Positions 12,126 through 36,122 of a stretch of 64,000 nucleotides of DNA are shown here, piece after piece; position 1 is the first letter of the stretch; each line of letters opens with the position of its first letter. The position numbers and the translations under genes were made by a program. The DNA is from Leucobacter rhizosphaerae (GTDB lineage Bacteria > Actinomycetota > Actinomycetes > Actinomycetales > Microbacteriaceae), in contig NZ_CP095043.1 in NCBI RefSeq assembly GCF_022919175.1, forward strand, positions 2,914,001-2,978,000, in the 5' to 3' direction. The notes beneath the pieces are model-generated. The model was given only the letters and a program-made list of their open reading frames with translations. It had not been told where the DNA came from and ran no database searches.

Positions 12126-13775
12126 CTACGCCGCCACCGGCAGTGCGGCGACGGCCCGCGCGAGCGCGACCCCGTCCTCGTCCGCCATCGCGGCCTTCGT
12201 GAGGCGCGCGAGCGTCGCCGCTGCATCGGGCCGGCCGAGCAGGCTCGGCACGGTGCCGAGCAGGATCCCGAAGCTCTCGGACCCGTGCGCGTGCGTCTGG
12301 CCGTAGCCCTTCAATACTCGGGCGCACGTGGTGATCTCGCACGCCAGGTCGTAGTCGGTGGCGGCGACGTCGACGATGAGGTCGAGCCACGCGTCGATCG
12401 CGGCCTGCTCGCGGCCGTAGCGCAGCGAGCGGGGCCGGATCGGGCGCATGGAGGCCATGAACCAGAGCGAGCTGAAGCCGAACACCGAGGTGGTGTTCAC
12501 GACCATGCCGTCGCGGGTGACGGCGCTCACGAGCTTCGCGAACAGCTTCGAGCGCGATAGCGCACGCCCGAGCGCCGTGGGGAGGGTATCCGTGATCTCG
12601 TCGAGCTGGGGGTGCAGGAACTCCCGGACCTGCGTCAGCTGTCCGGCGGAGGCCTTGGCCTCGGTCCGCACGCCCTCCATGCGGCGCTTGCGCAGCTTCT
12701 GCAGGGCGACGTGGATCGTGTCCTGGTACGCCATCCAGAGCGCCGTGTGGCGGGCGACCTCGATGGAGAGCGTGGCGTCGCCGTCCGGGCGACCCGCGTC
12801 GAACGGGATCACTCGCGAGGCCCGGTCCAGGAACAGGTCGGTGTAGCGGGGATCCTGGTAGAGCGCGGTGCGCACGCAGCCGTGCACCACCATCGAGCGA
12901 GCCGCCTCCGGGAAGTCGGCGACACGATCCATGCGGTCCGCGATCTTCGGGCCGACGAGCTGACGCGGATCGGAGATCGCGAGGTCGTGGTGCCGCTTCG
13001 CCTCGATCTCGGCGGCCTCGGCCTCGGGATCCCGCGGCGGACGGCGCCCGATCGTGACCCGCACGGGGCCGAGTCCCGAGGGCCGCTTCGGGGCCGCGGC
13101 GATCTCAGCCTCCTCCTCCGCGGCGCGCTGGGCGGCCTCGAAGCCGAGCCCGAACGCCTTGAGCGAGCGCTCGACGGCCTTGCCTGAACGCTTCAGCGAT
13201 TCCTCGAACTGCTCGCGCGGGATCGGGAGCACCCCGGAGCCCGCGAGAGCACCGAAGAGCGAGGACGAAATCACGCTCCCCGCCTGCAGGGCGAGCGCGT
13301 TGAAGTCGGTGGCAACGAGGCGCTTCGACCCGGCGCGCGCCGAGTTCACGAGGCTCTCGACGTCGACGCGCCCGTCGCCGAGCGCGATCTTCTCCGTCAC
13401 CGCGTAGACGCGGTTCGTCGACGCGATGAGGGTGGTGCGATCCGGCGTGCAGAAGCCGCGCTGGAGCGCGCGACCCGCCTCCATGAGTTCGGAGGCGATC
13501 ACGACGTCGACCTCGCCCGGGGTGGGGAAGAGGCTCAGGATCGGTTCGGCGCGCGGGCTGCCGGGTGCCGCGGTATCGGCGCGCGGGAAGAGCTCGACGT
13601 AGTAGACGGTCGCTCCGGTGCGCTGCGCGACACCGGCCACCGAGGTGCTCTGCGTCACGTATCCCGCGTCCTCGCCGAGCGAGACGATCCAGTCGGCGAG
13701 CACACCGCCGCCCTCGCCGCCCATCGCGAGGATGGCGATGGTGATGGGCCGGCGGCCGGTCATCCAGGTGTTCAC
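12126..13775 (-). CDS. iorB: Indolepyruvate-type oxidoreductase, beta-family subunit
   Basis: A 549-residue subunit of a 2-oxoacid:ferredoxin oxidoreductase. The first 210 residues are the gamma/beta-type domain (ITIAILAMGGEGGGVLADWIV, TGATVYYVELFP, VVIASELMEAGRAL). The long C-terminal half is the helical extension found in large aerobic IorB homologues. GTG at 13775 overlaps the stop of iorA (GTGA); ATG 13763 is the alternative. With IorA it should decarboxylate an aryl 2-oxoacid to the CoA ester, passing electrons to ferredoxin. It is the last gene of the liv-ior unit. Confidence 0.85.
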   Translation of the reverse strand: MNTWMTGRRPITIAILAMGGEGGGVLADWIVSLGEDAGYVTQSTSVAGVAQRTGATVYYVELFPRADTAAPGSPRAEPILSLFPTPGEVDVVIASELMEAGRALQRGFCTPDRTTLIASTNRVYAVTEKIALGDGRVDVESLVNSARAGSKRLVATDFNALALQAGSVISSSLFGALAGSGVLPIPREQFEESLKRSGKAVERSLKAFGLGFEAAQRAAEEEAEIAAAPKRPSGLGPVRVTIGRRPPRDPEAEAAEIEAKRHHDLAISDPRQLVGPKIADRMDRVADFPEAARSMVVHGCVRTALYQDPRYTDLFLDRASRVIPFDAGRPDGDATLSIEVARHTALWMAYQDTIHVALQKLRKRRMEGVRTEAKASAGQLTQVREFLHPQLDEITDTLPTALGRALSRSKLFAKLVSAVTRDGMVVNTTSVFGFSSLWFMASMRPIRPRSLRYGREQAAIDAWLDLIVDVAATDYDLACEITTCARVLKGYGQTHAHGSESFGILLGTVPSLLGRPDAAATLARLTKAAMADEDGVALARAVAALPVAA

Positions 13776-15952
13776 GCGGCCACCTCGTACTTGCTCGCGC
13801 GACGCTCGATCGGGCCGGAGAGCATCGACATCCAGCCCGAGCGGACGGCGCCGAGCGTCTTGTCGATCCAGCTCGGGTTGATCACGACGTCGGTGCGATA
13901 GAACGACGGGCAGAGGGAGGCGGCGTGCGCGTTCGCACCGCAGACGCCGCAGCCGACGCAGCTGTCGATGACGGTCGCGACCGGATCGGTGCGCATCGGA
14001 TCGGGGTTGTCCTTGAGCGTGAGCGAGGGGCAGCCCGAGATGCGGATACAGGCGTGGTCGCCCGTGCAGGTCTCCGCGTCCACGCCGAAGCGCTGGCGCA
14101 CGACCCGCTTGCCGGCCTTGATGGCCTGCTGGGTCTTCGGCTTCTCGCGCCGTTGCGCGTTGAGCTGGCACTCGCTCTGGGCGATGATGACCTTCGGGCC
14201 GTCCTCCTTCGTGGTGAACGCCTCGACGAAGATCTTCTTGAGCTTGCCCACGTCGTAGGTGTGCGACATCGTCTTGGCCCACTTCACCCCGACGCCGCGC
14301 ACCGCGCGTTCGATCGGGTGCTGGGTCGAGCGGGAGGCCGGCGCGGATCCGCCGTACGAGGAGAGCACGTCCTGCCCGCCGGTGGCGGCGGCGTAGGCGT
14401 TGTCGACGACGACGAGCACCTGGTCGTTCTTGTTGAAGACCGCGTTGCCGACGCCACTGGTGAGCCCGTTGTGCCAGAAGCCGCCGTCACCCATGACCGC
14501 GACCGTCGAGCGGTCGGCGTCGCGGGCGTTCAGCGCGGCGGCGCCGGCGGATCCGAGGCCGTAGCCCATCGTGGTGCCGCCGAGGTTGAACGGCTCGTTG
14601 ATCCCGAACAGGTGGCAGCCGATGTCCATGCTGACGTGGTGCTCCTGCCCGACCTCCTTCTCGGCGAGTTTCATCGCGCTGAAGATCGGGCGCTCCGGGC
14701 AGCCGGTGCAGAGCCCCGGTGGGCGTGCCTGCACCTGCGCGGCGTCCACGCGCGGTGCGAACGGGCTCGCCGGGTTCTCCGGCGGAAGGAGGAGCGCGGG
14801 GCGCGACGCCATGAGCTCCGGGCGGTGCGCCTCGAGGAACTCGGTGAGGCCCTTGGTCACCACCTGAGTCGTGTACTCGCCGCCCATGGGCAGCAGGTCC
14901 TTGCCGTGCAGCGCGGTGGTCACACCGGCCTTGCGCAGGATCGAGTGCAGGTTCTGCTCGATGTAGTCGGGCTGTCCCTCTTCGAGCAGCAGCACGGCCT
15001 TCTTGCCCGCGCAGAACTCGAGGACCTCCTCGTCGACGACCGGGTAGGTGACGTTCATCACGTACATCGGCACCTGGGTGTTACCGAAGGCGTCGGAGCA
15101 GCCGAGCAGTTCGAGAGAGCGATTCAGGGTGTTGTAGAGCCCGCCCTGCACGATGATGCCGATGTCGTCGACCCCCTCGGCGCCGTCGAAGAACTCGTTC
15201 ATGCCGTGGGTGCGGATGTACTCGACCGCCGCGGGCCAGCGCGCGTTGATCTTCTCCTGCTCGTGCAAGAAGCTGGCAGGCGGCAGCACGATGCGGCTGA
15301 GGTCGCGCTGGGGGTGCTCGACGGCGTCGGTGACGGTCATCGGGGGTCGCACGTTGTCCTCGGCGATGAAGGATCCCTGGAGGTGGCAGGAGCGGAGCCG
15401 GAGATCGAGCATGACGGGGGTGTTGCTCGCCTCGGAGAGGGCGAAGCCGTGCTTCACGGAGTCGACGATGGCGGAGATGTTCGGGCGCGGATCCAGCAGC
15501 CACATCTGCGACTTCATGGCGAACGCATGCGAGCGCTCCTGCATGATGCTGGATCCCTCGCCGTAGTCCTCGCCCAGGATCACGAGCGCCCCGCCCATGA
15601 CCCCGCCGCTCGCGAGGTTCGCGAGCGCGTCCGACGCCACGTTCAGCCCGACGGTGGACTTGAACGTCACCGCGCCGCGGAGCGGATAGTGCACCGATGC
15701 CGCGAGCATGGCCGCGGCCGTGGCTTCGGAGGCCGAATTCTCGAAGTAGACGTCGAGCTCGTCGAGGATGTCGTGCGCGTCGCCGAGCACATCCATGAGG
15801 TGGGAGATCGGCGCTCCCTGGTACCCGCCGACGTAGGCGACACCCGATTCGAGCAGGGCTTTCGTGACCGCGAGGATCCCCTCGACGTGCAGCGGCGTGC
15901 CGGCTCCCGAACGCAGGAGTTTCACCTCATTGACGAATGAACGCTCTGCCAT
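13772..15952 (-). CDS. iorA: Indolepyruvate-type ferredoxin oxidoreductase, alpha subunit
   Basis: A 726-residue thiamine-diphosphate enzyme that oxidatively decarboxylates an aryl 2-oxoacid to an acyl-CoA. Order of parts: the pyrimidine-binding domain with GGYQGAPISHLMD and ENSASEATAAAM near the N-terminus; the ThDP motif GDGGFWHNG near 488 with VVVDNAYAAATGGQ; and a C-terminal ferredoxin-like part with CTGDHACIRISGC and CVGCGVCG around 630-690. ATG 15952 is chosen because GAAAGG lies 8 bp before it. The 2-oxoacid is unknown; indolepyruvate is the family name, while isatinate would fit the neighbours (see findings). Confidence 0.92.
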   Translation of the reverse strand: MAERSFVNEVKLLRSGAGTPLHVEGILAVTKALLESGVAYVGGYQGAPISHLMDVLGDAHDILDELDVYFENSASEATAAAMLAASVHYPLRGAVTFKSTVGLNVASDALANLASGGVMGGALVILGEDYGEGSSIMQERSHAFAMKSQMWLLDPRPNISAIVDSVKHGFALSEASNTPVMLDLRLRSCHLQGSFIAEDNVRPPMTVTDAVEHPQRDLSRIVLPPASFLHEQEKINARWPAAVEYIRTHGMNEFFDGAEGVDDIGIIVQGGLYNTLNRSLELLGCSDAFGNTQVPMYVMNVTYPVVDEEVLEFCAGKKAVLLLEEGQPDYIEQNLHSILRKAGVTTALHGKDLLPMGGEYTTQVVTKGLTEFLEAHRPELMASRPALLLPPENPASPFAPRVDAAQVQARPPGLCTGCPERPIFSAMKLAEKEVGQEHHVSMDIGCHLFGINEPFNLGGTTMGYGLGSAGAAALNARDADRSTVAVMGDGGFWHNGLTSGVGNAVFNKNDQVLVVVDNAYAAATGGQDVLSSYGGSAPASRSTQHPIERAVRGVGVKWAKTMSHTYDVGKLKKIFVEAFTTKEDGPKVIIAQSECQLNAQRREKPKTQQAIKAGKRVVRQRFGVDAETCTGDHACIRISGCPSLTLKDNPDPMRTDPVATVIDSCVGCGVCGANAHAASLCPSFYRTDVVINPSWIDKTLGAVRSGWMSMLSGPIERRASKYEVAA

Positions 15953-16111: not shown

Positions 16112-17179
16112 TCACCGGAGTGATGCGGGGCTTGAACGGCCAGGTCGCCTCTCGACCCCCGTGATCCCGGACGGCCTGAAGATCAGGATGATCACCATGA
16201 TCGCGCCGAGGGTGATGAGCCGGCTCCCCGAGGGCAGCGACACGACGACGTCGCCGAGCTGCAGCCCCTTCTCGAACAGCCCGAGCACGTGGCTCAGCGC
16301 CGAGATCGCGAGGGCGCCCACGACCGCTCCCCACATCGACAGCATGCCGCCGACGACGAGCATTGCGATCGTGGTGAAGGTGAAGTCGAGCGAGAACTGC
16401 GAGGCCTGCGCGACCCCGTTGAGCTGCACCCAGACGGCACCGCCGATCCCGGCGAGCGCACCCGAAACGGTGAAGGCGATCAGGCGGTGCAGGGTGACGC
16501 GGATCCCGGAGGCCGGGGCCGCCTGCACGTTGTCGCGCGAGGCCCGGAGCATACGCGCGCTTCGGCTCTGGCCGTACAGCCAGGCGAGGGCGATCACGGC
16601 GAGTGCGATGAACAGGATCGACTGCAGATCGAAGCTGCGCGGCAGCCCGGTCATCGACTGACCGGCCTTCGGGCCGATCTGCTTCCAGTAGGTGAGGATC
16701 TGCACGACGAGCATCAGCAGCGCGAACGTCGCGATCCCCGCCTCCAGGCCGTTCAGGCGCATCAGGGCGAGCCCGCTGAGCAGGGCGACGAGGCCCGCAA
16801 CCAGCGCCGCGATGAGCAGGGCCACGAACGGGCTCGCGCTCGCCTGGGCGAGGAACGGGAACAGGTCGGGCATGATCGCGGACTTGATGTTCGGGGGAAT
16901 CGTCAGCAGCGACAGCGTCCAGGCGCCGACCGCGACGAACGCGATGTGGCCGAAGGACAGCACGCCGCTGTTGCCGATGAAGGTCCACATGGCGACCACG
17001 ATGATGAGGTTCGCGAGGGCGTAGCCCAGGTCGATCGCTGCGGTCTGCGACACGAAGCTGGTCGCCAGGGAGACGACCCACACGACGAGGAGCGGAACGG
17101 CGAGGGTCCACAGGCGGGCCAGCGGTTCCGGGATCGTGATCCCGGTGAACCGACGCCGGGGTGCGGGGGAGGTGGTCAT
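16112..17179 (-). CDS. livM: Branched-chain-type ABC transporter permease LivM
   Basis: A 355-residue permease with about nine membrane segments. The LivM signature is seen in IGNSGVLSFGHIAFVAVGAW and in the SRSARMLRASRDNVQAAPASGI loop that contacts the ATPase. ATG at 17179 overlaps the TGA of livH (ATGA). HAAT-family importers take up amino acids, amides, urea or aromatic acids. Being upstream of iorAB and next to aromatic genes, this one more likely imports an aromatic or indolic acid; that is inference. Confidence 0.9.
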   Translation of the reverse strand: MTTSPAPRRRFTGITIPEPLARLWTLAVPLLVVWVVSLATSFVSQTAAIDLGYALANLIIVVAMWTFIGNSGVLSFGHIAFVAVGAWTLSLLTIPPNIKSAIMPDLFPFLAQASASPFVALLIAALVAGLVALLSGLALMRLNGLEAGIATFALLMLVVQILTYWKQIGPKAGQSMTGLPRSFDLQSILFIALAVIALAWLYGQSRSARMLRASRDNVQAAPASGIRVTLHRLIAFTVSGALAGIGGAVWVQLNGVAQASQFSLDFTFTTIAMLVVGGMLSMWGAVVGALAISALSHVLGLFEKGLQLGDVVVSLPSGSRLITLGAIMVIILIFRPSGITGVERRPGRSSPASLR

Positions 17180-18057
17180 GTGCGCTCCTTGGAGTGCCGC
17201 CCGGCGAAGAGGCCGTTCGGGGCGATGACGAGGACGACGGCGACGAGGAGGTAGACGAACGCGATGCGGAAGTCGTTGATCCAGTCGGGGAGCCAGGTCG
17301 TGAACATGGAGACGGCGAAGCCGACGATGAACCCGCCGAAGACGCTGCCGCCGAGGCGCCCGAGTCCGCCGATCGCGGATCCGATGAGCGCGAACAGGGT
17401 GACCTGCACGCCGAACGTCGGCCCGACGGACCCCGACTGGGCGGTGAGCACAAAGGCGATCGCGGCGGCGAGGATGCCGCTCAGCGCGAAGGTGAGCGCG
17501 ATGACACTGCCGGCCCGGATCCCGAGCACCCGCGCGGCCCGGAAGTCCTCGGACGCCGCCCGCACCTGCAGCCCCATGCGGGTGCGGGTGAGGAAGACGT
17601 GCATGCCGACCAGGAGGACTGCGCCGAGCACGATGGACACGACCGAGATCAGGTTGACGCGCAATCCGCCGATCGTGACGGAGGAGGCGAGGGCCGGGGC
17701 GACCGCCGCCGACAGCACGTTCGTGCCGAAGACGCCATCGTAGACGCGCTGCAACAGGATGCTCACTCCGAAGCTCGCGATCAGCAGCGTCGCCGGGGGC
17801 TGGGAGCGGATCCAGCGGAAGACCGCCGCGTCCATGAACAGTGCGAGTGCCACGGCGACGACGATCGAGGCGACGATGGCGAGCGGCCACGAGACGGGCC
17901 AGAGCAGGATCAGAGCGTACCCCGCCCCGGTGATGAGCTCGCCGTTCGCGAAGTTCGCGAGGCGCATGACGCCGAAGACCAGGCCGATGCCGAGCGCGGC
18001 GAGCGCGTAGACGGCACCGGCGGAGGTCGCGTCGATGAGTGCTTGGAGGAAGGTCAC
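17176..18057 (-). CDS. livH: Branched-chain-type ABC transporter permease LivH
   Basis: A 293-residue permease. The segments FGVMRLANFANGELITGAGY near residue 30 and MGLQVRAASEDFRAARVLGI near 190 are LivH hallmarks, the second being the EAA-like loop that docks on the ATPase. The GTG start at 18057 overlaps the stop of livF; its own stop overlaps livM. A longer upstream reading lies inside livF and is not supported by homology of the N-terminus (TFLQALIDATSAGAVYALAALGIGL). Confidence 0.9.
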   Translation of the reverse strand: MTFLQALIDATSAGAVYALAALGIGLVFGVMRLANFANGELITGAGYALILLWPVSWPLAIVASIVVAVALALFMDAAVFRWIRSQPPATLLIASFGVSILLQRVYDGVFGTNVLSAAVAPALASSVTIGGLRVNLISVVSIVLGAVLLVGMHVFLTRTRMGLQVRAASEDFRAARVLGIRAGSVIALTFALSGILAAAIAFVLTAQSGSVGPTFGVQVTLFALIGSAIGGLGRLGGSVFGGFIVGFAVSMFTTWLPDWINDFRIAFVYLLVAVVLVIAPNGLFAGRHSKERT

Positions 18058-18785
18058 GAGCCTAAGTACGCTTTCATGAGAAGGGCGGAATCCTGGGCGT
18101 CGGCGGGGCTCAGCGTCATGGTGATGCGGCCCTCGCTGAGCACGTGGGTGCGGTCCGCGGCGGCGACGGTCTGCTGCGCGCGCTGCTCGACGAGCAGCAC
18201 GGCCGTGCCGCGGGCCCGGATGCTCTCGATCGACGCGAACACGGTGTCGACCGCCGTGGGGGAGAGCCCGAGCGACGGTTCGTCGAGCGCGAGGAGGCGC
18301 GGCGCGGCGAGCAGCGCGCGGCCGATCGCGAGCTGCTGCTGCTGCCCGCCAGAGAGGAGGCCGGCCTGGCGCTCGGCGAACTCCTGCAGGATCGGGAACA
18401 GGGTGTACACCCACTCCAGGTCCTCCGCGAGTCCGGCCGACGATGCGCGGGCGGTCGAGCCGAGCCGGAGATTCTCCCGCACGGTGAGCCGGCCGAACAC
18501 GTTGTGGCCCTCCTGCACGAGTGCGACCCCGGAGCGGGCGATGCGCTCCGTCGAGACCCCCAGCAGGTTCGCACCGGCGAAGGTGAGCGACTGCGCGTTC
18601 GCGCGGACCGCGCCGACGAGCGCGTGCATCATGGAGGACTTCCCGGCGCCGTTCGGGCCGATGATCCCGACGAGCTCACCCTCGGCGACGGTGAAGCTCA
18701 CGCCGCTGACCGCGGGGACACCGCGGTACGCGACGGTGAGATCCTCGACCGCCAAGAGCGGGGCCGTGGTGCGTGCGTCGCTCAT
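18054..18785 (-). CDS. livF: ABC transporter ATP-binding protein LivF
   Basis: A 243-residue ATPase of the LivF type. Walker A is GPNGAGKS, the signature is LSGGQQQQLAIGRAL, and Walker B is LLALDEPSLGLSP. These family members couple ATP hydrolysis to uptake by LivHM. The gene overlaps livG upstream and livH downstream by 4 bp each, so the whole importer is one translationally coupled unit. Confidence 0.93.
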   Translation of the reverse strand: MSDARTTAPLLAVEDLTVAYRGVPAVSGVSFTVAEGELVGIIGPNGAGKSSMMHALVGAVRANAQSLTFAGANLLGVSTERIARSGVALVQEGHNVFGRLTVRENLRLGSTARASSAGLAEDLEWVYTLFPILQEFAERQAGLLSGGQQQQLAIGRALLAAPRLLALDEPSLGLSPTAVDTVFASIESIRARGTAVLLVEQRAQQTVAAADRTHVLSEGRITMTLSPADAQDSALLMKAYLGS

Positions 18786-19555
18786 GCGAGCCCTCCCTCT
18801 GCGATCTGCTGCGCCGCGCTGCCCAGGTAGCTGCTGGCGAGGCGCTCGTCGCGCCGGACCTCGTCCGGAGTGCCGTCGAGCACGTTCTTGCCGGCGCCGA
18901 GCACGAAGATCGTGTCGCAGCTCGAGAAGATGAGCGGCATGTTGTGGTCGATGAGGAGCACCCCCACGCCCTGGTCGGCGACTGTGCGCATGGTGGTGCG
19001 CAGATGCTCGGCCTCACCGTCGTTGAGACCCGCCGCGGGCTCGTCCATGAGGACGTAGCTCGGCCGGGTCGCCAGCGCGCGGGCGACGCCGAGGCGCCGC
19101 TCGACGCCGTGCGGCAGCCCGTCGGCGTCGTGCAGCATCCACTCGGAGAGCTGCAGCTCGTCGAGGAGCTCCAGGGCGAGCCGCCGCGCGGCCCGCCGGC
19201 TCCCGCCGCAGGCGAGCGCGGTGATCTCGACGTTCTCGAGCACGGTGCTGCGACGGAAGAGGTGCCCGTGCTGGAACGTGCGGGCGATGCCGCGGCGGGC
19301 CCGGCGCTCCGGGCGCACCCGGGTGATGTCGTCGCCGTCGGCCGACACGCGCCCGCTGTCGGGCAGGTCGTACCCCGTGAGGATGTTGACGAGTGTCGAC
19401 TTGCCGGCGCCGTTCGCCCCGATGAGGCCGGTGACCCGGCCCTTCGGGATCTCGATCGACACGTCCGTCAGTGCCTGGACCCCGCTGTAGGAGCGGGAGA
19501 GGGTGTCCCCCCGCAGGCCGTCGTGGCCTGCGGGGGGAGTGGTGGTCTGCTGCAT
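18782..19555 (-). CDS. livG: ABC transporter ATP-binding protein LivG
   Basis: A 257-residue ATPase. Walker A is GANGAGKS, Walker B is YVLMDEPAAGL, and the GIARTFQHGHLF block is typical of LivG. The signature region reads PHGVERRLGVARAL, slightly divergent from the usual LSGG/YGxQR form. Codons near the start contain a perfect 13-bp inverted repeat (19507-19537) around a 5-nt loop, which could fold just downstream of the start codon and damp translation. Confidence 0.92.
   Translation of the reverse strand: MQQTTTPPAGHDGLRGDTLSRSYSGVQALTDVSIEIPKGRVTGLIGANGAGKSTLVNILTGYDLPDSGRVSADGDDITRVRPERRARRGIARTFQHGHLFRRSTVLENVEITALACGGSRRAARRLALELLDELQLSEWMLHDADGLPHGVERRLGVARALATRPSYVLMDEPAAGLNDGEAEHLRTTMRTVADQGVGVLLIDHNMPLIFSSCDTIFVLGAGKNVLDGTPDEVRRDERLASSYLGSAAQQIAEGGLA
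19507..19537 (-). repeat. 13-bp perfect hairpin inside the 5' end of livG
   Basis: Arms 19507-19519 and 19525-19537 (CCCCCCGCAGGCC and complement) with a GTCGT loop, falling about 7-16 codons into livG. Very G+C rich, so it would be a stable mRNA structure. A coincidence of codon choice is possible but 13 perfect pairs is a lot for chance. Confidence 0.7.
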
Positions 19556-19570
19556 GCGCGGATGCTCCGG

Positions 19571-22670: not shown

Positions 22671-23069
22671 CTAGCTGTCGCGGAGGACGGTCGTGACCCG
22701 CGCGGTCGACACCCGGTGGCCCAGGGCGTCGTCGATCTCAACGGCGTAGACCGCGACGGTGCGGCCGAGGTGGATCGCGCGGCAGGTCGCCGTGACGCGG
22801 CCCTCGGCGGCGCGGCCGGTGTGCGTCGCGCTGATGTCGAGCCCCACGGCCGTGCGGCCGTTGCCCGCGTGCTCGCAGGCCGCCAGAGACGCCAGTGTTT
22901 CTGCGAGTGTGCAGTAGGCCCCGCCGTGCATCGAACCGGTGATCTGCCGGTTCCCCGCAACGGGCATCGTCGCGATCGCGTGGTCGGCGTTGACCCGCAC
23001 GAACTCGATCCCGAGTCGCTCGTCGAGCTCCCCGAGGACGGTCTTCACTGCATCGGTGTTGGTGTGCAT
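22671..23069 (-). CDS. PaaI-like hotdog thioesterase
   Basis: A 132-residue single hotdog-domain protein. The PaaI signature GSMHGGAYCTLAETLAS carries the substrate-binding HGG (48-50) and catalytic-type acidic residue Glu58. It should hydrolyse an aromatic acyl-CoA, as PaaI does for hydroxyphenylacetyl-CoA, either releasing a free acid for ring cleavage or rescuing trapped CoA. ATG 23069 follows GAAGGA. It lies 17 bp downstream of the Rid-family gene and is probably co-transcribed with it. Confidence 0.87.
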   Translation of the reverse strand: MHTNTDAVKTVLGELDERLGIEFVRVNADHAIATMPVAGNRQITGSMHGGAYCTLAETLASLAACEHAGNGRTAVGLDISATHTGRAAEGRVTATCRAIHLGRTVAVYAVEIDDALGHRVSTARVTTVLRDS

Positions 23070-28013: not shown

Positions 28014-28787
28014 ATGAGTACCACTCTGGACATCGCAACCGCCCTCGCATCGGGCACGGTCCGCATCGTCGACCTGACCAATCCGCTGTCGTCCGAGACG
28101 CCGACGCTGCGGCTGCCCGACCCCTTCGCGAACCTCATCGACTTCAGCCTGGAGGAGGTCAGCCGCTTCAACGACCCTGGGCCGCTCTGGATGCACCACA
28201 ACATCCACACCGGCGAGCACATCGGCACGCACCTCGACGCCCCCGTGCACTGGATCAGCGGCAAGGACGGTCTCGATGTCGCCAGTATCCCGCCCGCCCG
28301 CCTCGTCGGTCCCGCCGTGGTGCTCGACTTCACCGCGCAGGTGGCGGAGAACCCCGACTACCTGGTGACGGTCGAGGACATCCGGGCCTGGGAGGCCGAC
28401 CACGGCGCGCTGCCCGAGAACGGGTGGGTGCTCTTCCGCACCGGGTGGGATCGTTTCGCGAGCGACCGCGAGGCGTTCCTGAACACCGACGAGACCGGAT
28501 CGCACACGCCCGGTATGACCGCGGAGACCGCGAAGTGGCTGGCGGAGGAGACGAAGATCTCGGGTGTCGGCGTGGAGACCGTGGGGATCGACGCGGGGCG
28601 CGGGGCGGAGCTCGATCCGCCGTTCGCCGCCCACTACCACCTGCTCGGCAACGACAAGTACGGCATCACCTCGCTGCAGAACCTCGGCGAGTTGCCGGCG
28701 ACCGGCGCCGTGATCATCGTCGCGCCGCTGCCGATCGTCGGCGGCGGTGGCAGCCCGTCGCGCATCTACGCGCTGATCGACGCATAG
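28014..28787 (+). CDS. Cyclase-family amidohydrolase (isatin hydrolase / kynurenine formamidase-like)
   Basis: A 257-residue metal-dependent hydrolase of the cyclase family. The signature HIGTHLDAPVH supplies His69, His73, Asp75 and His79; GIDAGRGAEL and HYHLLGND complete the site. Characterised relatives open cyclic or formyl amides: isatin hydrolase and kynurenine formamidase. GAGGAG precedes ATG 28014. No tryptophan dioxygenase or kynureninase gene is in the window, whereas an indole-type monooxygenase is, so isatin hydrolysis is favoured here by context. Confidence 0.87.
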   Translation: MSTTLDIATALASGTVRIVDLTNPLSSETPTLRLPDPFANLIDFSLEEVSRFNDPGPLWMHHNIHTGEHIGTHLDAPVHWISGKDGLDVASIPPARLVGPAVVLDFTAQVAENPDYLVTVEDIRAWEADHGALPENGWVLFRTGWDRFASDREAFLNTDETGSHTPGMTAETAKWLAEETKISGVGVETVGIDAGRGAELDPPFAAHYHLLGNDKYGITSLQNLGELPATGAVIIVAPLPIVGGGGSPSRIYALIDA

Positions 28788-28795: not shown

Positions 28796-29194
28796 ATGTC
28801 GCGCACGGTCATCAACCCGCCGGAGATCCATCCTGCGCCCGGGTTCAGCCACCTCACGATCGCGCCTCCGGGTACCACCGTCTATGTTTCCGGGCAGATC
28901 GCCCTCTCGCGTGATTTCCAGGTGATCGGTCCGGGGGACCTGGCGGAGCAGACCCGGGCGGCGATGCGGAATGTCGGAATCGCCCTCCGCGCGGCGGGTG
29001 CGGAGTGGGGCGACGTCGTGCGCCGCACGATCTACACGGTGCACCCCACGGAGTACGAGGTGATCACGGCCGCGATCGAGGAGGTGCAGGGGAGCAGCGA
29101 GCATCCATCTCAGACGATCGTCGGCATTTCCGGTCTTGCGATCGCGGGGCTGCTCATCGAGATCGAGGTGACGGCGGTGATCCCGGCGAGCTAG
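28796..29194 (+). CDS. Rid-family protein 2
   Basis: A 132-residue Rid-family protein (GTTVYVSGQIALSRDFQVI; EVITAAIEEVQG; IVGISGLAIAGLLIEIEVTAVI). As in the first Rid gene the catalytic arginine of RidA is missing (SQTIVG at that place). It begins 8 bp after the cyclase stop and is the last gene of the plus-strand operon, closed by a terminator. A deaminase or enamine hydrolase step on a nitrogen-containing ring-cleavage product is plausible. Confidence 0.85.
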   Translation: MSRTVINPPEIHPAPGFSHLTIAPPGTTVYVSGQIALSRDFQVIGPGDLAEQTRAAMRNVGIALRAAGAEWGDVVRRTIYTVHPTEYEVITAAIEEVQGSSEHPSQTIVGISGLAIAGLLIEIEVTAVIPAS

Positions 29195-29253: not shown

Positions 29254-30840
29254 TTACCGGGTCTTGCCGGTGATGATGCGCTGCGCGACCAGGTGCCCGG
29301 ATCCCGCACCGAGCCCCGGCCCCGGGTGCGTCGCGGCGCCGATGTGCCAGACACCCCCCACCGCGGTCCGGTGCCCCGCCGCGCCCGGGAACGGGCGCCA
29401 GCGGAGGTTCTGATCGAGTTCCGCGGAGCCCGCGTACGGGTCCCCGGAGATCGCGTTCGGGTTCTCTGCGAGCAGGTCCGTCGGCGCGATGATGTCGGTC
29501 GCGAGGATCGACTCGCGAGTGCCCGGCGCGAACGCCTCGAGGCGGTCGATCACGCGGTCCACGTAGCGCTGCCGCAGGTCGCCGCTCTCCCAGCCGCCGC
29601 GCGTGTCGATCGTTTCGGACGCGTCGCCGACGGGCGCGAACGGCACCTCCTGCAGCTGGAGCCAGAGCGTCGCCTGGCCCTGGGGCGCCCGACTCGGATC
29701 GAGCAGACTCTGCTGTCCGACCACCACGGTGGGCCGCGACGGCAGGAGCCCCGCCTCCGCCTGGGCGCACGCGATTCCGGTGCTCCCGGATCCGTCGCTC
29801 AGGTGGATCAGCGGTACCGAGGCGAGCGCGGGATCCTCCCACTGCAGTGGGCGATCCAGCGCGAAGTGGAGCTGCATCGCTGCGCGGCCCGGACGGTAGT
29901 GCTCGGCGCTCCGTCGCTGGCTCGCGACCTCGGGCGACGAGCGGAGCAGCGACCCGTACAGCGCGCCGGGGGACACGCTGGCGAGCACGGTGTCGGCGGC
30001 GATCGTGCCCGACGACGTGCGCACCCCGGTGGCCTTGCCGCCGGAGACGAGGATCTCCTCGGCCTCCTCGCCCGTGCGGATCTCGACACCCGAGTCACGC
30101 AGCAGCCGCTCGAACGCGACGAGGAATTCCCCGGCGCCGCCCGTGACGACGGGCAGGCCGAACTGGTGCATGGCGGCCGCGAACACCGGGATCATCATGC
30201 CGCCGGTGGCGTGATCCGGGCCGAGGCCCGAGTGCAGGCCCCACGGGGTCCAGAGTGCGTCGACCTCCCACCCGGTGAACTTCCGTCGGAGGTAGCTGCG
30301 CGCGCTCGTCAGCGAATCGCGGGCCAACGACTCAAGACCGGCCGCCTTGAGCGCGCGCAGTGCCTTCCACCCGAGCGTGCCGGCGACGCGGTTCGAGCCG
30401 AGCTCCGCGCCGAGCGCCCCGAAGATGAACGGTGCGCGCGGCCCGAACTCGTCGAGCATGCCGAGGTACGCGTCGCGGTCGCTCGCGAGCCCGAAACCCT
30501 CGGCCGTGCGCGCCGGGTCGCGGTACGCGATCGTCGTGCGCCGCTCGCCCTGCACGTCGGCCGTGCTCGCCGTGACGGCGTCGTCGCTGTTCGAGTAGCT
30601 CAGGCCGCGCGCCGCGAGCTCATCGCCGAGCTCGGCGAACGCCGCACTGGAGACGAAGAGCGGATGCCACGAGGAGTAGGTGTCGTGCCGGAACCCGGGG
30701 AGCGTGCGCTCGGGATCCGCGGCGATGAAGCCGCCGATCCGCTCCGCGCGCTCGATGAGTACCGTGTCGATCCCGGCGCGGGCGAGCTCAGCCGCCGCGA
30801 CCATCCCGTTGATACCACTCCCGATGACAACCGTTGTCAT
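29254..30840 (-). CDS. FAD-dependent oxidoreductase, CrtI/phytoene-desaturase-like
   Basis: A 528-residue flavoprotein. The N-terminal FAD motif is VVIGSGINGMVAAAELARAG; the C-terminal HIGAATHPGPGLGAGSG is the flavin-closing motif of the CrtI/amine-oxidase branch. No carotenoid genes are near. It is the last gene of the SDR-monooxygenase-reductase operon and overlaps the flavin reductase gene by 4 bp, so it probably oxidises an intermediate of that pathway (for example an indoline or dihydroxy intermediate). The actual reaction is unknown. Confidence 0.85.
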   Translation of the reverse strand: MTTVVIGSGINGMVAAAELARAGIDTVLIERAERIGGFIAADPERTLPGFRHDTYSSWHPLFVSSAAFAELGDELAARGLSYSNSDDAVTASTADVQGERRTTIAYRDPARTAEGFGLASDRDAYLGMLDEFGPRAPFIFGALGAELGSNRVAGTLGWKALRALKAAGLESLARDSLTSARSYLRRKFTGWEVDALWTPWGLHSGLGPDHATGGMMIPVFAAAMHQFGLPVVTGGAGEFLVAFERLLRDSGVEIRTGEEAEEILVSGGKATGVRTSSGTIAADTVLASVSPGALYGSLLRSSPEVASQRRSAEHYRPGRAAMQLHFALDRPLQWEDPALASVPLIHLSDGSGSTGIACAQAEAGLLPSRPTVVVGQQSLLDPSRAPQGQATLWLQLQEVPFAPVGDASETIDTRGGWESGDLRQRYVDRVIDRLEAFAPGTRESILATDIIAPTDLLAENPNAISGDPYAGSAELDQNLRWRPFPGAAGHRTAVGGVWHIGAATHPGPGLGAGSGHLVAQRIITGKTR

Positions 30841-31403
30841 GAGCCCTCCGAGCTGTGCGTTGTGGTGCCATGATAGCTGCCGCCGTGGAAGACGAGCGGT
30901 GCCGCAGCCGCGTGCGCGTACCGCACGATCTGCCCGATGTAGATGACGTGGTCGCCGGCCTCGTGGCGTGCCGTCGTCTCGCACTCGAACGTGGCGAGGG
31001 TGCCCTCGAGCACCGGGATCCCGGCCACACCCTCGCGCAGCGGCACCCCCTCGAACTTGTCCGTCGCCCCCGCCGCGAATTGCCGCGACAGCTGGTGCTG
31101 GTCGCTCGCGAGCACGTTGATGGCGAAGTGCGTGGCCGTCTCGAACGCCGGCAGGCTGCGCAGGTGCCGGCCGGGGCACCACAGCACGAGGGGCGGGTCC
31201 ATCGAGAGGGAGGTGAAGGAGTTCGCCGTCACCCCGATACGCTCGCCCTCCGGGGTGACGGTCGTGACGACGGTCACCCCCGTGGCGAACTGGCTGAACG
31301 CGGAGCGCAGATCCCGCGGGTCGAAATCTGCGGCATCGACACTGGTACTCATGGCGGATCCCTCCACGGCCGAGGACGTTGACGTCTGAGTGATGATGGA
31401 CAT
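30837..31403 (-). CDS. Flavin reductase, partner of the StyA-like monooxygenase
   Basis: A 188-residue NAD(P)H:flavin reductase (FATGVTVVTTVTPEGERIGVTANSFTSLSMDPPLVLW; TAVKFEGV-like region; HVIYIGQIVRY). It would deliver FADH2 to the monooxygenase encoded 27 bp upstream. ATG 31403 follows AGGAG; a second in-frame ATG 17 codons later (MSTSVDAAD) is an alternative. Gene order monooxygenase-reductase matches styrene and indole monooxygenase systems. Confidence 0.88.
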   Translation of the reverse strand: MSIITQTSTSSAVEGSAMSTSVDAADFDPRDLRSAFSQFATGVTVVTTVTPEGERIGVTANSFTSLSMDPPLVLWCPGRHLRSLPAFETATHFAINVLASDQHQLSRQFAAGATDKFEGVPLREGVAGIPVLEGTLATFECETTARHEAGDHVIYIGQIVRYAHAAAAPLVFHGGSYHGTTTHSSEGS

Positions 31404-31430: not shown

Positions 31431-32672
31431 TCAGGCCGCCGCGCGACCGGCGACCTCCGCCAGGTAGCGCTCGCTGCCGGCGGGATCGAGGAAGTAGTCG
31501 CCGAAATCGACCGGGTCGTTGAAGCCGTTCGCGAAGCGGTGCGCGATCTCGGGGTACTGGGACGCCGCGCCGAGCACCTGCAGCACGTGCGGCGGCGGCG
31601 GCTGCAGCAGCGCGTTCGTCCAGTCGGCGACCGGCTTGATGCGCGCCCAGTACCGCTCGAAGGCGTTCTGCTGGAAGGCACGGTCGTAGGGGAGGTTCTC
31701 GTGGTCGAGGATCGTGTCGAGGTAGCTCTGCGCGCACTTGGATGCGTTGTTCGACCCCTGCCCGGTGATCGGGTCGTTGAGCACGACCACATCGGCCATG
31801 CCGAGCACTGTACGGCCGGAGGGAAGCTCCATGATCGGGTGGCGCACGGTCGGGGCGAAGCGGCCCTGCAGCACCCCCAGGTCGTCGGTGAGGCTCACAT
31901 CGGTCGCGCGCTCGGCCTCCCACGGCAGGTACGTGCGCAGGAAGTCGAGCGAGGCGTCGAGATGCTGCTCGGGCGTGAGGCCCTGCCAGCGATCGAGCGG
32001 ACCGCCGGGCACACCCTCGAAGACGAAGATGTGGCAGTCGCCGCTGATGGTCGCGGCCGGGAAGACGAAGAACTCGCCGACGCCGGGGATCAGATTGAAG
32101 GCCACCCGGGAGAAATCGGGGCTGGGTTCGAAGCCGTGCACGTAGGTGAGGGCGAGCGCACGCTGCGGCTCGGCGTAGGTGCTGCGATCCGCGTCGCGCT
32201 CGAAGGCCCGCGCGATCTCGCCCTTGCCCGCGGCGACGATCACGAGCTCCGATTCGAGCGAGTAGCGCTCGAGGGCCGCGATGTCGGCCTCCTCGAAGAC
32301 GACCTCGCCGCCGTTCTGCTGGAACGTCTCGATGAGCGCCGGGAACTTGATGCGCTGGTCGATCGCGTACGCGGGCTGATCGAGGCGGCCCGCCCAGCTG
32401 AAGAGCTTCTCGCCCGGCTGCTCCGGGTGCGGCACGGTGAAGCCGATCCCCTCGACCGGCGGTGCGTCGGGCCAGAGATCGACCCCCACGGCGCGCTCGT
32501 ACTCGAGGGCCTTGGAGAACATGCACTGGCTCGAGGCCACGCGGCCGGCGCGAATCTCCTCGGGGGTGCGATCCGAGATCAGCCGCACGTGGTAGCCGTG
32601 CATGAGGAGGCCGAGGCCGAGCTGGATGCCGGACTGGCCGGCTCCGACGATGGTGATGTGACGCTGGGACAT
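31431..32672 (-). CDS. Styrene/indole monooxygenase-like flavoprotein (StyA family)
   Basis: A 413-residue two-component flavin epoxidase-type subunit. The FAD motif is IVGAGQSGIQLGLGL at about 8-22, followed by RTPEEIRAGRVASSQCMF, which is typical of StyA/SmoA and of indole oxygenases. Further on come IVAAGKGEIARAF and NDPITGQGSNNASKCA. Members convert styrene to the epoxide and indole to indole oxide/indoxyl. With the reductase, SDR and FAD oxidoreductase of the same operon, an indole or indolic substrate is likely. ATG 32672 has AAAGG upstream. Confidence 0.9.
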   Translation of the reverse strand: MSQRHITIVGAGQSGIQLGLGLLMHGYHVRLISDRTPEEIRAGRVASSQCMFSKALEYERAVGVDLWPDAPPVEGIGFTVPHPEQPGEKLFSWAGRLDQPAYAIDQRIKFPALIETFQQNGGEVVFEEADIAALERYSLESELVIVAAGKGEIARAFERDADRSTYAEPQRALALTYVHGFEPSPDFSRVAFNLIPGVGEFFVFPAATISGDCHIFVFEGVPGGPLDRWQGLTPEQHLDASLDFLRTYLPWEAERATDVSLTDDLGVLQGRFAPTVRHPIMELPSGRTVLGMADVVVLNDPITGQGSNNASKCAQSYLDTILDHENLPYDRAFQQNAFERYWARIKPVADWTNALLQPPPPHVLQVLGAASQYPEIAHRFANGFNDPVDFGDYFLDPAGSERYLAEVAGRAAA

Positions 32673-32790: not shown

Positions 32791-33573
32791 TTACTCGGGC
32801 GGTGCGAGGAGCGGGATCGCGGGATCGCGCTGCTCCGGACCGAGCGCCGAGTATCCGCCGTCCACGGCGTAGTCCGCGCCGGTGACGAAGCTGGCGGCGT
32901 CGGAGGCGAGGAACGCGACCACCCGGCCGACCTCCTCCGGGCGTCCCAGGCGGCCGAGCATGTGGAAGTCGGCGGCGACACGGTCCGCGTGCGCGAGGTC
33001 GCCGCCGGAGACCGACTCGATGACGTTCGACCAGGTCCAGCCGGGGCTGACCGAGTTCACACGGATGCCGTCCGGCGCGTAGTCGAGCGCCTGGAGCTTC
33101 GTGAGCTGGGCGATCGCGGCCTTGCTGACGGGGTAGACCCAGCGCCCGGTCTGGGCGACCGAGGAGGAGATGGACGTGAAGTTGACGACCGCACCGTGCC
33201 CGCTCGCCGCCAGGTGCGGCCGCGCCTCGGCGACGAGCCGGGCCCCGCTCACGAGATTGATGTCGAGGGCGGTCAGCCAGTCGGCGCGCGAGGTGTCGGC
33301 GCCCTCGTCGAGATAGGTCGCCGCGAGATTCACGACGATGTCGAGTCGGCCGTGGCGTGCGACCGCGCCCGAGACGAGCGACGCGAGCTGTGCGTCGTCG
33401 GCGATGTCGCAGCGCTGGGCGTCGATCCCGGGATCGAGTGCGGCGAGTCCGTCGGCGTCGATGTCGGCGACGACCACGACGGCGCCTTCGCCCCGGAGGA
33501 CGTCGACCACCCCGCGGCCGATCTTCGTCGCGCCTCCGGTCACGATGGCGACCCGGTCGGTGAGTGCGGGCAT
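32791..33573 (-). CDS. Short-chain dehydrogenase/reductase
   Basis: A 260-residue SDR. The nucleotide motif TGGATKIGRG is at 12-21, the catalytic Ser lies in FTSISSS, and the YPVSK motif (about 151-155) provides Tyr and Lys. The usual NNAG is NLAA. The C-terminal FVTGADYAVDGGYS is classical. It leads the four-gene minus-strand operon. In known indole-oxidising clusters an SDR also accompanies the StyA-like oxygenase, where it works on the indole epoxide or dihydrodiol; the parallel supports a similar job here. Confidence 0.9.
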   Translation of the reverse strand: MPALTDRVAIVTGGATKIGRGVVDVLRGEGAVVVVADIDADGLAALDPGIDAQRCDIADDAQLASLVSGAVARHGRLDIVVNLAATYLDEGADTSRADWLTALDINLVSGARLVAEARPHLAASGHGAVVNFTSISSSVAQTGRWVYPVSKAAIAQLTKLQALDYAPDGIRVNSVSPGWTWSNVIESVSGGDLAHADRVAADFHMLGRLGRPEEVGRVVAFLASDAASFVTGADYAVDGGYSALGPEQRDPAIPLLAPPE

Positions 33574-33740: not shown

Positions 33741-34753
33741 ATGGCGCCGAGAGCCTGGGCCGAGCTTCCCCGTGCCGACGAGTTGCTGAGCTCGCGACCG
33801 ACCCTCCGCGCCGAGACGGTCGATGAGGCCCACGAGACCATCTCCGCGCTGTTCTGCGAGCACGCGCTCGCCCCGATCGAGCGCAGCGAGGTGCGGATGC
33901 AGCTGCGCTCCGTGCACGACGGCGGCGTCGGGATCGAACTGCTCGATTATGGTCGCGCTGTGAGGATCGCGGTCGACCGCGGGCTCGAGGACTTCCACCT
34001 GGTGCAGATTCCGCTCAGCGGCCGCGCGACGATGCACGTCGGCAACGCGGTGGTGGACTCGTCGCCGCAGGTCGCGACCGTGCCGCCCATCGATCGCGAG
34101 TTCGTCATGCGCTGGGGGCCGGCGTGCCGACCCTGATCGTGTACGTGGCGAAGGATCGGCTCCGCGAGATGGCGCGGGCGGTGTACCAGGTGGATGCGGA
34201 TCGACTGCAGCTCGGCCTGCACCTGCAGCTCGGGGCTCCCGCGGGCGCGGACTTCCTGCGCGCCCTCGTGGAGCATCACGACGTGCTGGAGCGCGCGACG
34301 ACGGACGGCGCCTTCGCGCGCAAGCTCAGCGCCGATCTCCTGCTCGCGCGGCTGCTGAACGCGGCTGACAACTCGGTGAGCCGCTCGCTCGGGGCGTGGT
34401 CGAATGCGGAGGCGACCTCGATCCCGCGCGGCGACGCTCTCGTCCGGCGGTTCGAAGAGGCCATCGACGCCGCCGCGACCGAGGGCTCGAGTGTGCTCGA
34501 CATCGCGACCGAACTCGGGGTGCCGCTGCGCACGCTGCAGAGCCACGTGCGGGCGACGCGGGGCACCACGCCGACCGCCATGCTGCGCGACGCCCAGCTG
34601 CGCCGCGCGCGGGCACTGCTCGCCGCGGCTGATCCTCACCGCGAGACGGTCACGAGCATCGCGACGCAGGCCGGATTCGCGCACCTGGGCCGCTTCTCGA
34701 CGGAGTACCGGCGGCGGTTCGGCGAGTCCCCGGCCGAGACGCTGCGCCGATGA
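33741..34753 (+). pseudogene. AraC-family regulator, frameshifted
   Basis: Two overlapping frames give one AraC regulator of about 337 residues. The first frame (ATG 33741 after AAGGGGGAG) encodes the cupin-like sensor half, ending near REFVMRWG. The second frame (from about 34118) encodes the rest, starting PTLIVYVAKDRLREMA and ending in a double helix-turn-helix (VLDIATELGVPLRTLQSHV; VTSIATQAGFAHLGRFSTEY). Adding one G to the GGGGG run at 34114-34118 joins them as RWGAGVPTLIVYV. It is divergent from the SDR operon and presumably its activator. Sequencing error or true mutation cannot be told apart here. Confidence 0.87.
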
Positions 34754-35553
34754 GCGGCGCACTCCGCGACGGAGCTGCCCGCGACGGCACGCTGCACTCG
34801 GTGGCGAAGGCGCTCGAGATCCTGCACCTGCTGCGCGCCCACGGACCGCAGCGCCTCTCCGACATCGCCCGCGAGGTGGGGGTCGGATCCTCGACGGCGC
34901 ACCGTCTCGTCACCACGCTCCGGCAGCAGCGATTCGTGCGCCAGGAGCGCAACGGCAAACGGTACGAACTCGGATCCGCGATGCTCTTCTCGTCGACGGT
35001 CTCGGCGCTCGAGCACTGCGTGGCCGTGAGCGAGGACGTGATGCGCGAACTGCAGGAGACGACGGGGGAGACGATCCACCTCACGGTGCTGCGCGGCGGA
35101 CGCTGCCTGTTCGCGGCGTCCGTCGAGTCCGGGCGGCCCGTCAGCGTCACGAGCCGCGTGGGCCAGGGGCCCCCGGCGCACACGGCGGCCGGGGGCAAGA
35201 TCCTGCTCGCGGCTCTGGATCCCGAGCGACTCACCGAGGTGTACCTGTCTGCGCCGCTGCCCGCCATCACCGCCGACTCGATCACCGAGGTCACGGAGCT
35301 CGAGCGCGAGCTCGATGCGGCGCGGGATCTCGGGTTCGCGCGGAATCTCGGGGAGTCCGAGGCGGACATGTATGCGTTGGCGGTGCCAGTACGACGCCCG
35401 AGCGGCGAGGTCATCAGCAGTCTGACGGTCGCGGCGCCGCTGTCGCGGATGGGCGGGCCTGAGCGGGGAGTGACGCTCAACTCGCGCGAGGAGGGATTGC
35501 TGCAGCAGGTGCGGGCGGCGGCCGCACGCATCGAGGTGCTGCTCGCGTATTGA
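34750..35553 (+). CDS. IclR-family transcriptional regulator
   Basis: A 267-residue IclR regulator with an N-terminal winged helix (about 14-75; SVAKALEILHLLRAHGPQRLSDIAREVGVGSSTAHRLVTTLR) and a C-terminal GAF-like effector domain (GETIHLTVLRGGRCLFAASVES; HTAAGGKILLAAL). The ATG overlaps the stop of the AraC gene. IclR proteins often control aromatic catabolism. A sequence close to the IclR consensus lies 12-23 bp after its own stop, in front of the cupin gene. Confidence 0.9.
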   Translation: MSGALRDGAARDGTLHSVAKALEILHLLRAHGPQRLSDIAREVGVGSSTAHRLVTTLRQQRFVRQERNGKRYELGSAMLFSSTVSALEHCVAVSEDVMRELQETTGETIHLTVLRGGRCLFAASVESGRPVSVTSRVGQGPPAHTAAGGKILLAALDPERLTEVYLSAPLPAITADSITEVTELERELDAARDLGFARNLGESEADMYALAVPVRRPSGEVISSLTVAAPLSRMGGPERGVTLNSREEGLLQQVRAAAARIEVLLAY

Positions 35554-35672: not shown

Positions 35673-36122
35673 ATGACCGACGCACTCGACCCCCTCGGCC
35701 GCCCGTTCAAGAGCATCAGCATCCAGCGCAAGGACGAGTTGCCGCTCGCTCCGGGCCAGACGTCGAAAGCGAAGCGCTACTCGGGCGTCTCCGTCGAGAA
35801 CACCGACGTCGTTGACCTGTGGTTCGGGCGCGTGCACACGGGAGTCGGTGAGCACTCCGATCCGCATCACCACGGCGAGGCGGAGACCGGCGGGTACGTG
35901 CTGCAGGGCAGCGGATACATCCGGTTCGGCGAGCGCTACACCGAGGTCATCTACTTCGAGGAGGGCGACTTCGTGTACGTGCCGCCGTTCGTGCCGCACA
36001 TCGAAGGCAATGTGAGCCGCTCGAAGGAGCTCATCTGGCTCACCACCCGCAACCCCGACAACATCGTCGTCAACCTCGAGGATCAGGACGTCGCGGACAT
36101 CGAGCTCGAGTACAAGGACTGA
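35673..36122 (+). CDS. Cupin-domain metalloprotein
   Basis: A 149-residue single cupin. Cupin motif 1 gives His65, His67 and Glu71 (HSDPHHHGEAE), and motif 2 gives His109 (PPFVPHIEG), so a complete metal site is present. GAAAGGA precedes ATG 35673. Small cupins of this kind serve as dioxygenases, isomerases or decarboxylases. In this island it could cleave an aminohydroxybenzoate ring or decarboxylate an intermediate, but the sequence does not decide. Confidence 0.8.
   Translation: MTDALDPLGRPFKSISIQRKDELPLAPGQTSKAKRYSGVSVENTDVVDLWFGRVHTGVGEHSDPHHHGEAETGGYVLQGSGYIRFGERYTEVIYFEEGDFVYVPPFVPHIEGNVSRSKELIWLTTRNPDNIVVNLEDQDVADIELEYKD

Follow-up and report, generated by a model that had tools for sequence, protein, structure and literature searches.

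The locus described here raises the question of whether an aerobic actinobacterium can degrade indole through isatin to anthraniloyl-coenzyme A (CoA) without passing through a CoA ligase. It lies in Leucobacter rhizosphaerae, in a stretch of 64,000 nucleotides (contig NZ_CP095043.1, positions 2,914,001 to 2,978,000; here the window) of a 3.34-Mb, single-contig genome. An earlier note made from the letters alone had described a catabolic island at window positions 12126-36122, with a StyA-like monooxygenase, its reductase and a short-chain dehydrogenase (SDR), an amidohydrolase of the isatin-hydrolase group, an IorAB-type oxidoreductase, a fused 2-aminobenzoyl-CoA enzyme, a PaaX repressor and a liv-type importer. 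Gene calling by codon usage and hmmscan against Pfam and NCBIfam confirmed these families and added two RidA proteins, an FAH-family protein, TesB-like and hotdog thioesterases, a cupin, AraC and IclR regulators and a luciferase-type set on the left. Judged from sequence comparison, the island probably encodes a complete aerobic indole pathway of three joined modules, running via isatin, isatinate and anthraniloyl-CoA. The genes to which steps of this route are assigned are the following, in order of use.

31431..32672, minus strand: group E indole monooxygenase (IMO), 523 bits and 59% identity to 7z4x, with most of the IMO fingerprint
30837..31403, minus strand: flavin reductase of the indole monooxygenase (PF01613)
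32791..33573, minus strand: SDR, IifB-like dihydrodiol dehydrogenase (PF13561)
29254..30840, minus strand: CrtO/phytoene-desaturase-like flavin adenine dinucleotide (FAD) oxidoreductase, proposed dioxindole-to-isatin dehydrogenase (PF01593; start set from a relative)
28014..28787, plus strand: isatin-hydrolase-like cyclase-family amidohydrolase, 252 bits and 49% identity to isatin hydrolase 5nnb
12126..13775, minus strand: IorB-type subunit with DUF6537, proposed isatinate oxidoreductase (PRK08312, 658.8 bits, above the cut-off of 348)
13772..15952, minus strand: IorA-type subunit with a thiamine diphosphate (ThDP) domain and C-terminal Cys motifs (PF02775; TIGR03336, 274.9 bits, below 650.9)
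25551..27935, plus strand: fused 2-aminobenzoyl-CoA monooxygenase/reductase with FAD and OYE domains (PRK08255, 1179.7 bits, above the cut-off of 1078)
23087..23482, minus strand: RidA 1, putative lower-pathway enamine deaminase (PF01042)
28796..29194, plus strand: RidA 2 (PF01042)
23723..24540, plus strand: FAH-family hydrolase, split in two frames, proposed ring opener (PF01557 on the second piece)
24544..25446, plus strand: TesB-like acyl-CoA thioesterase (TIGR00189, 209 bits, below 292.85)
22671..23069, minus strand: hotdog thioesterase (TIGR00369, 85.7 bits)

Homology and gene context suggest that indole is converted to the 2,3-epoxide or dihydrodiol by the monooxygenase together with its flavin reductase, and that the SDR forms dioxindole from this product. 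The CrtO-like enzyme may then yield isatin, and the hydrolase would open isatin to isatinate. IorAB is proposed to decarboxylate isatinate oxidatively with CoA, giving anthraniloyl-CoA and CO2 with the aid of ThDP and a putative iron-sulfur electron path. Such a reaction would make the CoA ester directly, so that no ATP-dependent ligase would be needed on the route. The fused enzyme would hydroxylate and reduce anthraniloyl-CoA to 2-amino-5-oxocyclohex-1-ene-carboxyl-CoA, a RidA protein may hydrolyze this enamine to 2,5-dioxocyclohexane-carboxyl-CoA, and the FAH-family hydrolase and the thioesterases may open the ring and release the chain. Regulation would fall to the PaaX, AraC and IclR proteins, and the Liv importer would take up a substrate. 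A CoA ligase encoded elsewhere could also bring tryptophan-derived anthranilate into the lower module.

The joining step falls to IorAB, an oxidoreductase whose IorB subunit belongs to the PRK08312 subfamily by a wide score. Isatinate is 2-aminophenylglyoxylate, an aryl 2-oxo acid. Phenylglyoxylate:acceptor oxidoreductase, known from anaerobes, turns an aryl 2-oxo acid and CoA into aryl-CoA and CO2 with ThDP, a reaction parallel to the one proposed for IorAB. Genome comparison links IorAB to the enzymes before and after it. The fused enzyme occurs in 22 of the 22 IorAB genomes tested, one 4-kb contig (L024) being excluded, and the hydrolase lies within the fetched stretch at 12 of 23 IorB loci, to which a whole-genome search adds nine, giving 21 of 22 genomes. 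Only Pacificispira lacks it, and the IorB there is 40% identical. Among 296 genomes sampled from the class, the hydrolase was found in 47, the fused enzyme in 46 and IorA in seven, and all seven IorA genomes have both of the others; six of the seven belong to one family, so these counts are not independent. Of 50 plasmid records with IorA, 40 have the hydrolase as well (E 1e-40), at a distance of no more than 5 kb in 19 and no more than 30 kb in 39 as measured from the best place per record; 19 of the 50 come from Sulfitobacter, so the records are not independent. The ten without hydrolase comprise four Variovorax, three Hydrogenophaga, two Delftia and one uncultured record.

The closest solved relatives of the window hydrolase are isatin hydrolases. 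Their metal motif HxG[T/A]HxDxPxH is present as HIGTHLDAPVH, and the Asp-His pair of the triad is in register. Given two changed motifs described below, kynurenine formamidase is a conceivable alternative identity. Kynurenine formamidases score 30 bits against the 252 of isatin hydrolases, and what we take to be tryptophan dioxygenase and kynureninase are encoded in another cluster.

In the upper module, the best solved match of the monooxygenase is 7z4x, which we take to be the indole monooxygenase VpIndA1; StyA (3ihm) scores 155 bits. The IMO fingerprint is given as S46-Q48-M50-V/I73-I76-A96 in the available text of PMC13101512, whose reference list cites the VpIndA1 structural paper. Five of the six positions are found in the window protein by spacing (S47-Q49-M51, V73-I76), and the sixth by alignment only, as an Ala at 94 opposite the alanine of 7z4x. 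The predicted trio of monooxygenase, reductase and SDR is thus present, with a monooxygenase of indole rather than StyA type. A styrene pathway was rejected at 238.2 bits against the NF045732 StyA equivalog cut-off of 550.

The adjoining SDR, monooxygenase and flavin reductase genes, with an AraC-type regulator nearby, recall the iif/ind clusters of Acinetobacter, Cupriavidus and Burkholderia. The three island proteins are 48-57% identical to Burkholderia and Acinetobacter records, and the SDR is 56-57% identical to the SDR adjoining the monooxygenase at four comparison loci (L059, L060, L064, L065). In the iif pathway the last enzyme, IifA, yields anthranilate directly (available text of PMC6221969), whereas the island would open isatin by hydrolysis and end in a CoA ester. 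With a Burkholderia protein presumed to be IifA from its gene position as query, no match at E 0.001 was found in the L. rhizosphaerae genome, three other Leucobacter genomes (G015, G017, G018) or two plasmids; weak partial matches (28-42%) occurred in G002, G014, G019 and G020. The iif pathway itself was rejected on the lack of a match to this ring-cleaving enzyme in the genome. In Azospirillum thermophilum, a single stretch holds the hydrolase, an FAD enzyme, a transporter, flavin reductase, monooxygenase, SDR and AraC regulator. The CrtO-like homologue adjoins the hydrolase there, and no IifA match was found on the record. Since IifA is unmatched and a CrtO-like enzyme and hydrolase are present instead, as in the Azospirillum stretch, we infer that the CrtO-like FAD enzyme, which has only weak solved relatives, oxidizes dioxindole to isatin.

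The lower module resembles a region of pAL1 in Arthrobacter Rue61a, where PaaX, RidA, FAH, cupin, TesB and the fused enzyme occur together at 33-70% identity. A 70% homologue of RidA 1 lies there between PaaX and FAH, and a 52% homologue of the cupin between FAH and TesB. All of the pAL1 set except the ligase is present in the island, the FAH gene being frame-split. The pAL1 module differs in that a CoA ligase feeds quinaldine-derived anthranilate into it, and IorAB, the hydrolase and the indole monooxygenase gave no match in the 31 kb of pAL1 searched. According to the available text of PMC3534580, two anthranilate-CoA ligases of Rue61a were assayed in E. coli extracts, anthraniloyl-CoA was detected, and anthranilate alone gave rise to a C7H8O4-CoA ester, which the authors suggest to be cyclohexanedione-carboxyl-CoA. 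This is the product expected if RidA hydrolyzes the enamine. Its 1,3-dicarbonyl ring would suit an FAH-family hydrolase, yielding 4-oxopimelyl-CoA. By this analogy, RidA may serve as the enamine hydrolase and FAH as the ring opener.

Gene order is kept from the cupin to the FAH gene in five other Leucobacter assemblies (L074-L077, L080) at 62-92% identity, which argues that the gene set is not a chance one; RidA 2 is in place in only two of the five. From FAH the genes run on to IorB within one contig in G015, G017 and G018; in G019 this part has a contig of its own, and in G014 it is broken up, with neither Liv nor PaaX found adjoining IorA. The nearest named relatives, Leucobacter chromiireducens and L. 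luti, have IorB at 79-82% and IorA at 88-89% identity. With IorA in only seven of 54 genomes of the genus, its own genome counted, the island is accessory. The search of other actinobacteria that the earlier note had recommended recovered the set, both as conserved order in Leucobacter and as the hydrolase and fused enzyme in IorAB genomes. A 28-kb stretch of an Alloyangia pacifica plasmid carries the SDR, monooxygenase, flavin reductase, fused enzyme, RidA, FAH, cupin, hydrolase, two FAD oxidoreductases, IorAB and a transporter. The annotation of this stretch shows no ligase.

In actinomycetes lacking IorA, the hydrolase mostly has another partner. Of 40 such genomes with the hydrolase, 37 have a ThDP enzyme of about 550 residues no more than 1.5 kb from it, covering 17 of 17 genera. 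The three others are G183 (1.3 Mb off), G220 (on another contig) and G291 (no match), and seven of the loci were opened (L066-L070, L072, L073). The search was confined to these 40 hydrolase genomes and 20 IorAB genomes; among the 20, the enzyme was not found in L. rhizosphaerae and 14 others, including Leucobacter G015, G017 and G018. Its best match to solved structures is 153 bits, with several activities represented, and it is a candidate isatinate decarboxylase or lyase. In a hydrolase tree of 35 rows, several of them labelled N for the lack of IorA within the aligned stretch, the Leucobacter group branches with the ThDP-linked L070 (98/96), and another ThDP-linked row, L069, is the sister of the Xylanimicrobium/Nocardioides/Pimelobacter group (100/99). 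The hydrolase thus seems to have changed partner on at least two occasions. A swap of partner while the hydrolase stayed fits two enzymes, IorAB and the ThDP enzyme, that both act on the same 2-oxo acid, isatinate.

Several observations weigh against the proposed route. In the available text of PMC6117287, published isatin hydrolases carry a GLQC/GLAS signature and a WxW/FxW pocket motif; the window hydrolase has neither, reading GITS and WMH at these places. Among 14 aligned rows, GLQC/GLAS is absent from all ten actinobacterial rows, and WxW/FxW is lost in three (window, L006, L061). The four proteobacterial rows keep both motifs, including those adjoining IorA or an indole monooxygenase. 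The IorA score lies under the equivalog cut-off of the IOR-alpha model, so that the name 'indolepyruvate' rests on subfamily likeness. In the 289 genomes of the class sample without IorA, the hydrolase occurs in 40 and the fused enzyme in 39, with both in only 12. Two IorAB loci (L008 and L011) have no hydrolase nearby and a ligase homologue in the cluster; in their genomes the hydrolase has another place, about 1 kb or less from the ThDP enzyme. Five of the 20 IorAB genomes also hold the ThDP enzyme, and the indole monooxygenase is missing from the fetched stretch of 17 of the 18 IorAB loci outside Leucobacter. Two island genes, FAH (~23723-24540) and AraC (~33804-34753), are split in two frames here and whole in relatives, which may reflect either assembly indels or real decay. 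The order of intermediates in the earlier note, from indole to isatin, isatinate and anthraniloyl-CoA, is supported by genome comparison (co-occurrence, the unmatched IifA, the ThDP pairing and Alloyangia) and qualified by the hydrolase, which keeps its family and metal motif and departs from the group at the two signature motifs.

The best surviving alternative, which we regard as unlikely, takes isatinate through 2-aminobenzaldehyde to anthranilate and then to a CoA ligase, with IorAB serving another substrate such as indolepyruvate. The close pairing of hydrolase and ThDP enzyme in genomes without IorA is in keeping with it, as are a ligase homologue at three of the seven opened loci (L066, L067, L069) and the report of anthranilate as product of the iad auxin pathway, in the available text on that pathway. 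A ligase homologue is also present at E 1e-80 in 19 of 23 IorAB genomes, L. rhizosphaerae included (not in G007, G009, G010 or G021). Set against this, the ThDP enzyme that would make the aldehyde was not found in L. rhizosphaerae and most of the other IorAB genomes searched, and the ligase homologue of L. rhizosphaerae is frame-split, perhaps through assembly error.

That homologue lies at 1.788-1.790 Mb, 1.1 Mb from the island, and is 61% identical to the L008 ligase. No benzoate-CoA-ligase-family protein was found inside the window, and the 16 model matches in the genome are all below cut-off. The notion of a genome without any CoA-ligase homologue is ruled out by the frame-split gene, so the description 'without a CoA ligase' holds for the island and fails for the genome. 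Together with FAH and AraC, the ligase homologue makes up three catabolic genes that are frame-split here with intact homologues in relatives. It belongs to a tryptophan/kynurenine-type cluster (L034, 1779000-1797000) that also holds genes for a PaaX-like regulator, a thiolase and a CoA-transferase. Other proteins of this cluster are presumably tryptophan 2,3-dioxygenase, kynureninase and a formamidase-like hydrolase. The cluster possibly feeds the same lower pathway. In Nocardioides and Tsukamurella, a ligase directly adjoins the fused enzyme. Anthraniloyl-CoA would be reached in two ways, from anthranilate by a ligase and, probably, from isatinate by IorAB.

Less probable still is a variant in which the same core of hydrolase, IorAB and fused enzyme acts on a related indolic ring, such as auxin, skatole or a breakdown product of a quinolone. 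The divergent hydrolase motifs and the rarity of the indole monooxygenase at IorAB loci outside Leucobacter speak for it, and so does the iad pathway. The iad loci of Variovorax, Bradyrhizobium and Sulfitobacter-type plasmids degrade auxin, according to the available text on them, and share with the island isatin or isatinic acid as intermediates and IorAB (iadA/iadB). They differ in a Rieske oxygenase entry on auxin and in anthranilate as the described end product. A Sulfitobacter plasmid carries a cyclase-family hydrolase and IorAB as well as an iad-like stretch, and its best hydrolase match is 24 kb from IorA. On the other side, an indole-type monooxygenase stands beside the core or the hydrolase in the window, the five Leucobacter assemblies, Embleya, Alloyangia and Azospirillum. 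The Rieske oxygenase (iadDE) was not found in the island, and the genome has a single PF00848 match, at 1.955 Mb (49.3 bits, over the Pfam cut-off); the iad pathway was rejected for the island on this basis.

The iad literature bears on IorAB itself. The available text of PMC9613470 names iadA and iadB as exclusive markers of iad loci, and in their available parts two auxin-degradation papers (PMC9613470, PMC12633357) assign iadAB to no step. In the latter, a 2025 preprint, a nine-gene region iadC-K2, which by its name is without iadA or iadB, is described in the available text as restoring anthranilate formation in a deletion strain, and C8H7NO3 and C7H7NO as building up strongly only with the whole of iadC-K2 overexpressed. 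These are the formulae of isatinate and 2-aminobenzaldehyde. Such a build-up would follow if the usual task of IadAB is to remove isatinate, a reading that is ours, the authors' available text being silent on it.

A salicylate or phenylacetate island is very improbable: the name of the PRK08255 model, 'bifunctional salicylyl-CoA 5-hydroxylase/oxidoreductase', and the PaaX-family regulator point to it, but the other island genes pass no salicylate-model cut-off, PaaX is under its equivalog cut-off, the 68%-identical pAL1 homologue of the fused enzyme is assigned to the anthranilate-CoA pathway, and Rue61a did not grow on salicylate (available text of PMC3534580), on which grounds the salicylate pathway was rejected.

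The left edge of the island is placed at about 9556, beyond the earlier boundary, so as to include the genes at 9556-12102 before IorB, which encode a flavin reductase, an AraC regulator and, between them, a luciferase-type monooxygenase. The AraC and luciferase-type genes remain close to IorB in relatives. The predicted PaaX repressor and liv-type importer were both recovered by Pfam. The remaining features are as follows.

9556..10014, plus strand: flavin reductase, probable partner of the luciferase-type monooxygenase and likely part of the island (PF01613; also near IorB in L002)
10017..11132, plus strand: luciferase-type flavin monooxygenase, RutA/SfnG-like (TIGR04021, 185.9 bits, below cut-off)
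11134..12102, plus strand: AraC-family regulator, AndR-like (NF041686, 61.8 bits, below cut-off; PF12833)
16112..20767, minus strand: Liv-type importer of two permeases, two ATPases and a binding protein (PF02653, PF00005, PF13458)
21000..21830, minus strand: PaaX-family repressor (PF20803/PF08223/PF07848; TIGR02277, 155 bits, below the equivalog cut-off)
21950..22435, plus strand: glyoxalase-fold protein (PF00903)
33804..34753, plus strand: AraC/AndR-like regulator, split in two frames and whole in relatives (PF14525, PF12833)
34750..35553, plus strand: IclR-family regulator (PF01614)
35673..36122, plus strand: cupin protein (PF07883)

The solved relatives of the luciferase-type monooxygenase are RutA and SfnG, and such enzymes lie near IorAB or PaaX at seven more loci from several genera (L006, L009, L012, L015, L017, L019, L021). 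In L. luti (L004, 11941-19789), a block with ABC-transporter ATPase-like genes separates IorB from the AraC/luciferase-type pair, which are neighbors in the window. At L014 (4392-7704), nitrilase-like, cupin and isopropylmalate-dehydrogenase-like genes are directly upstream of IorA. To the right of the island are a primary-amine oxidase gene (36641-38575) and three tRNA genes for Glu, Asp and Phe (38818-39127).

The modules are known from the iif, iad and Arthrobacter anthranilate-CoA systems, and what is new is their arrangement and, probably, the joining step. A text search of the literature, with most subscription journals outside its reach and thus weak evidence of absence, found no proposal that IorAB converts isatinate to anthraniloyl-CoA and no paper bringing Leucobacter, indole and isatin together. 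Among the best 20 of 1,036 papers matched in a broad search for an isatinate decarboxylase, none has that term. The earlier statement that no joined aerobic actinobacterial pathway had been described agrees with that search, and is to be qualified in that the co-location extends beyond actinobacteria, to plasmids and Alloyangia.

We give about even chances to a broader view in which isatinate is a general branch point, used either by a ThDP lyase leading to the aldehyde, anthranilate and a ligase, or by IorAB as an isatinate:ferredoxin oxidoreductase that yields anthraniloyl-CoA directly, with iadAB acting alike. If so, the description of anthranilate as the iad end product would be due in part to assays that lacked iadAB. 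Should the proposed route hold, an oxidoreductase annotated only as of 'indolepyruvate' type would gain a function, the markers iadA and iadB would gain a role, and there would be an aerobic way to convert a heterocyclic compound to an aryl-CoA at no ATP cost for a ligase. Since IorAB, the fused enzyme and the hydrolase are also found in small-genome actinobacteria labelled acI, acSTL or Nanopelagicales (L015, L016, L018, L019), the route may play a part in the turnover of indolic compounds in water.

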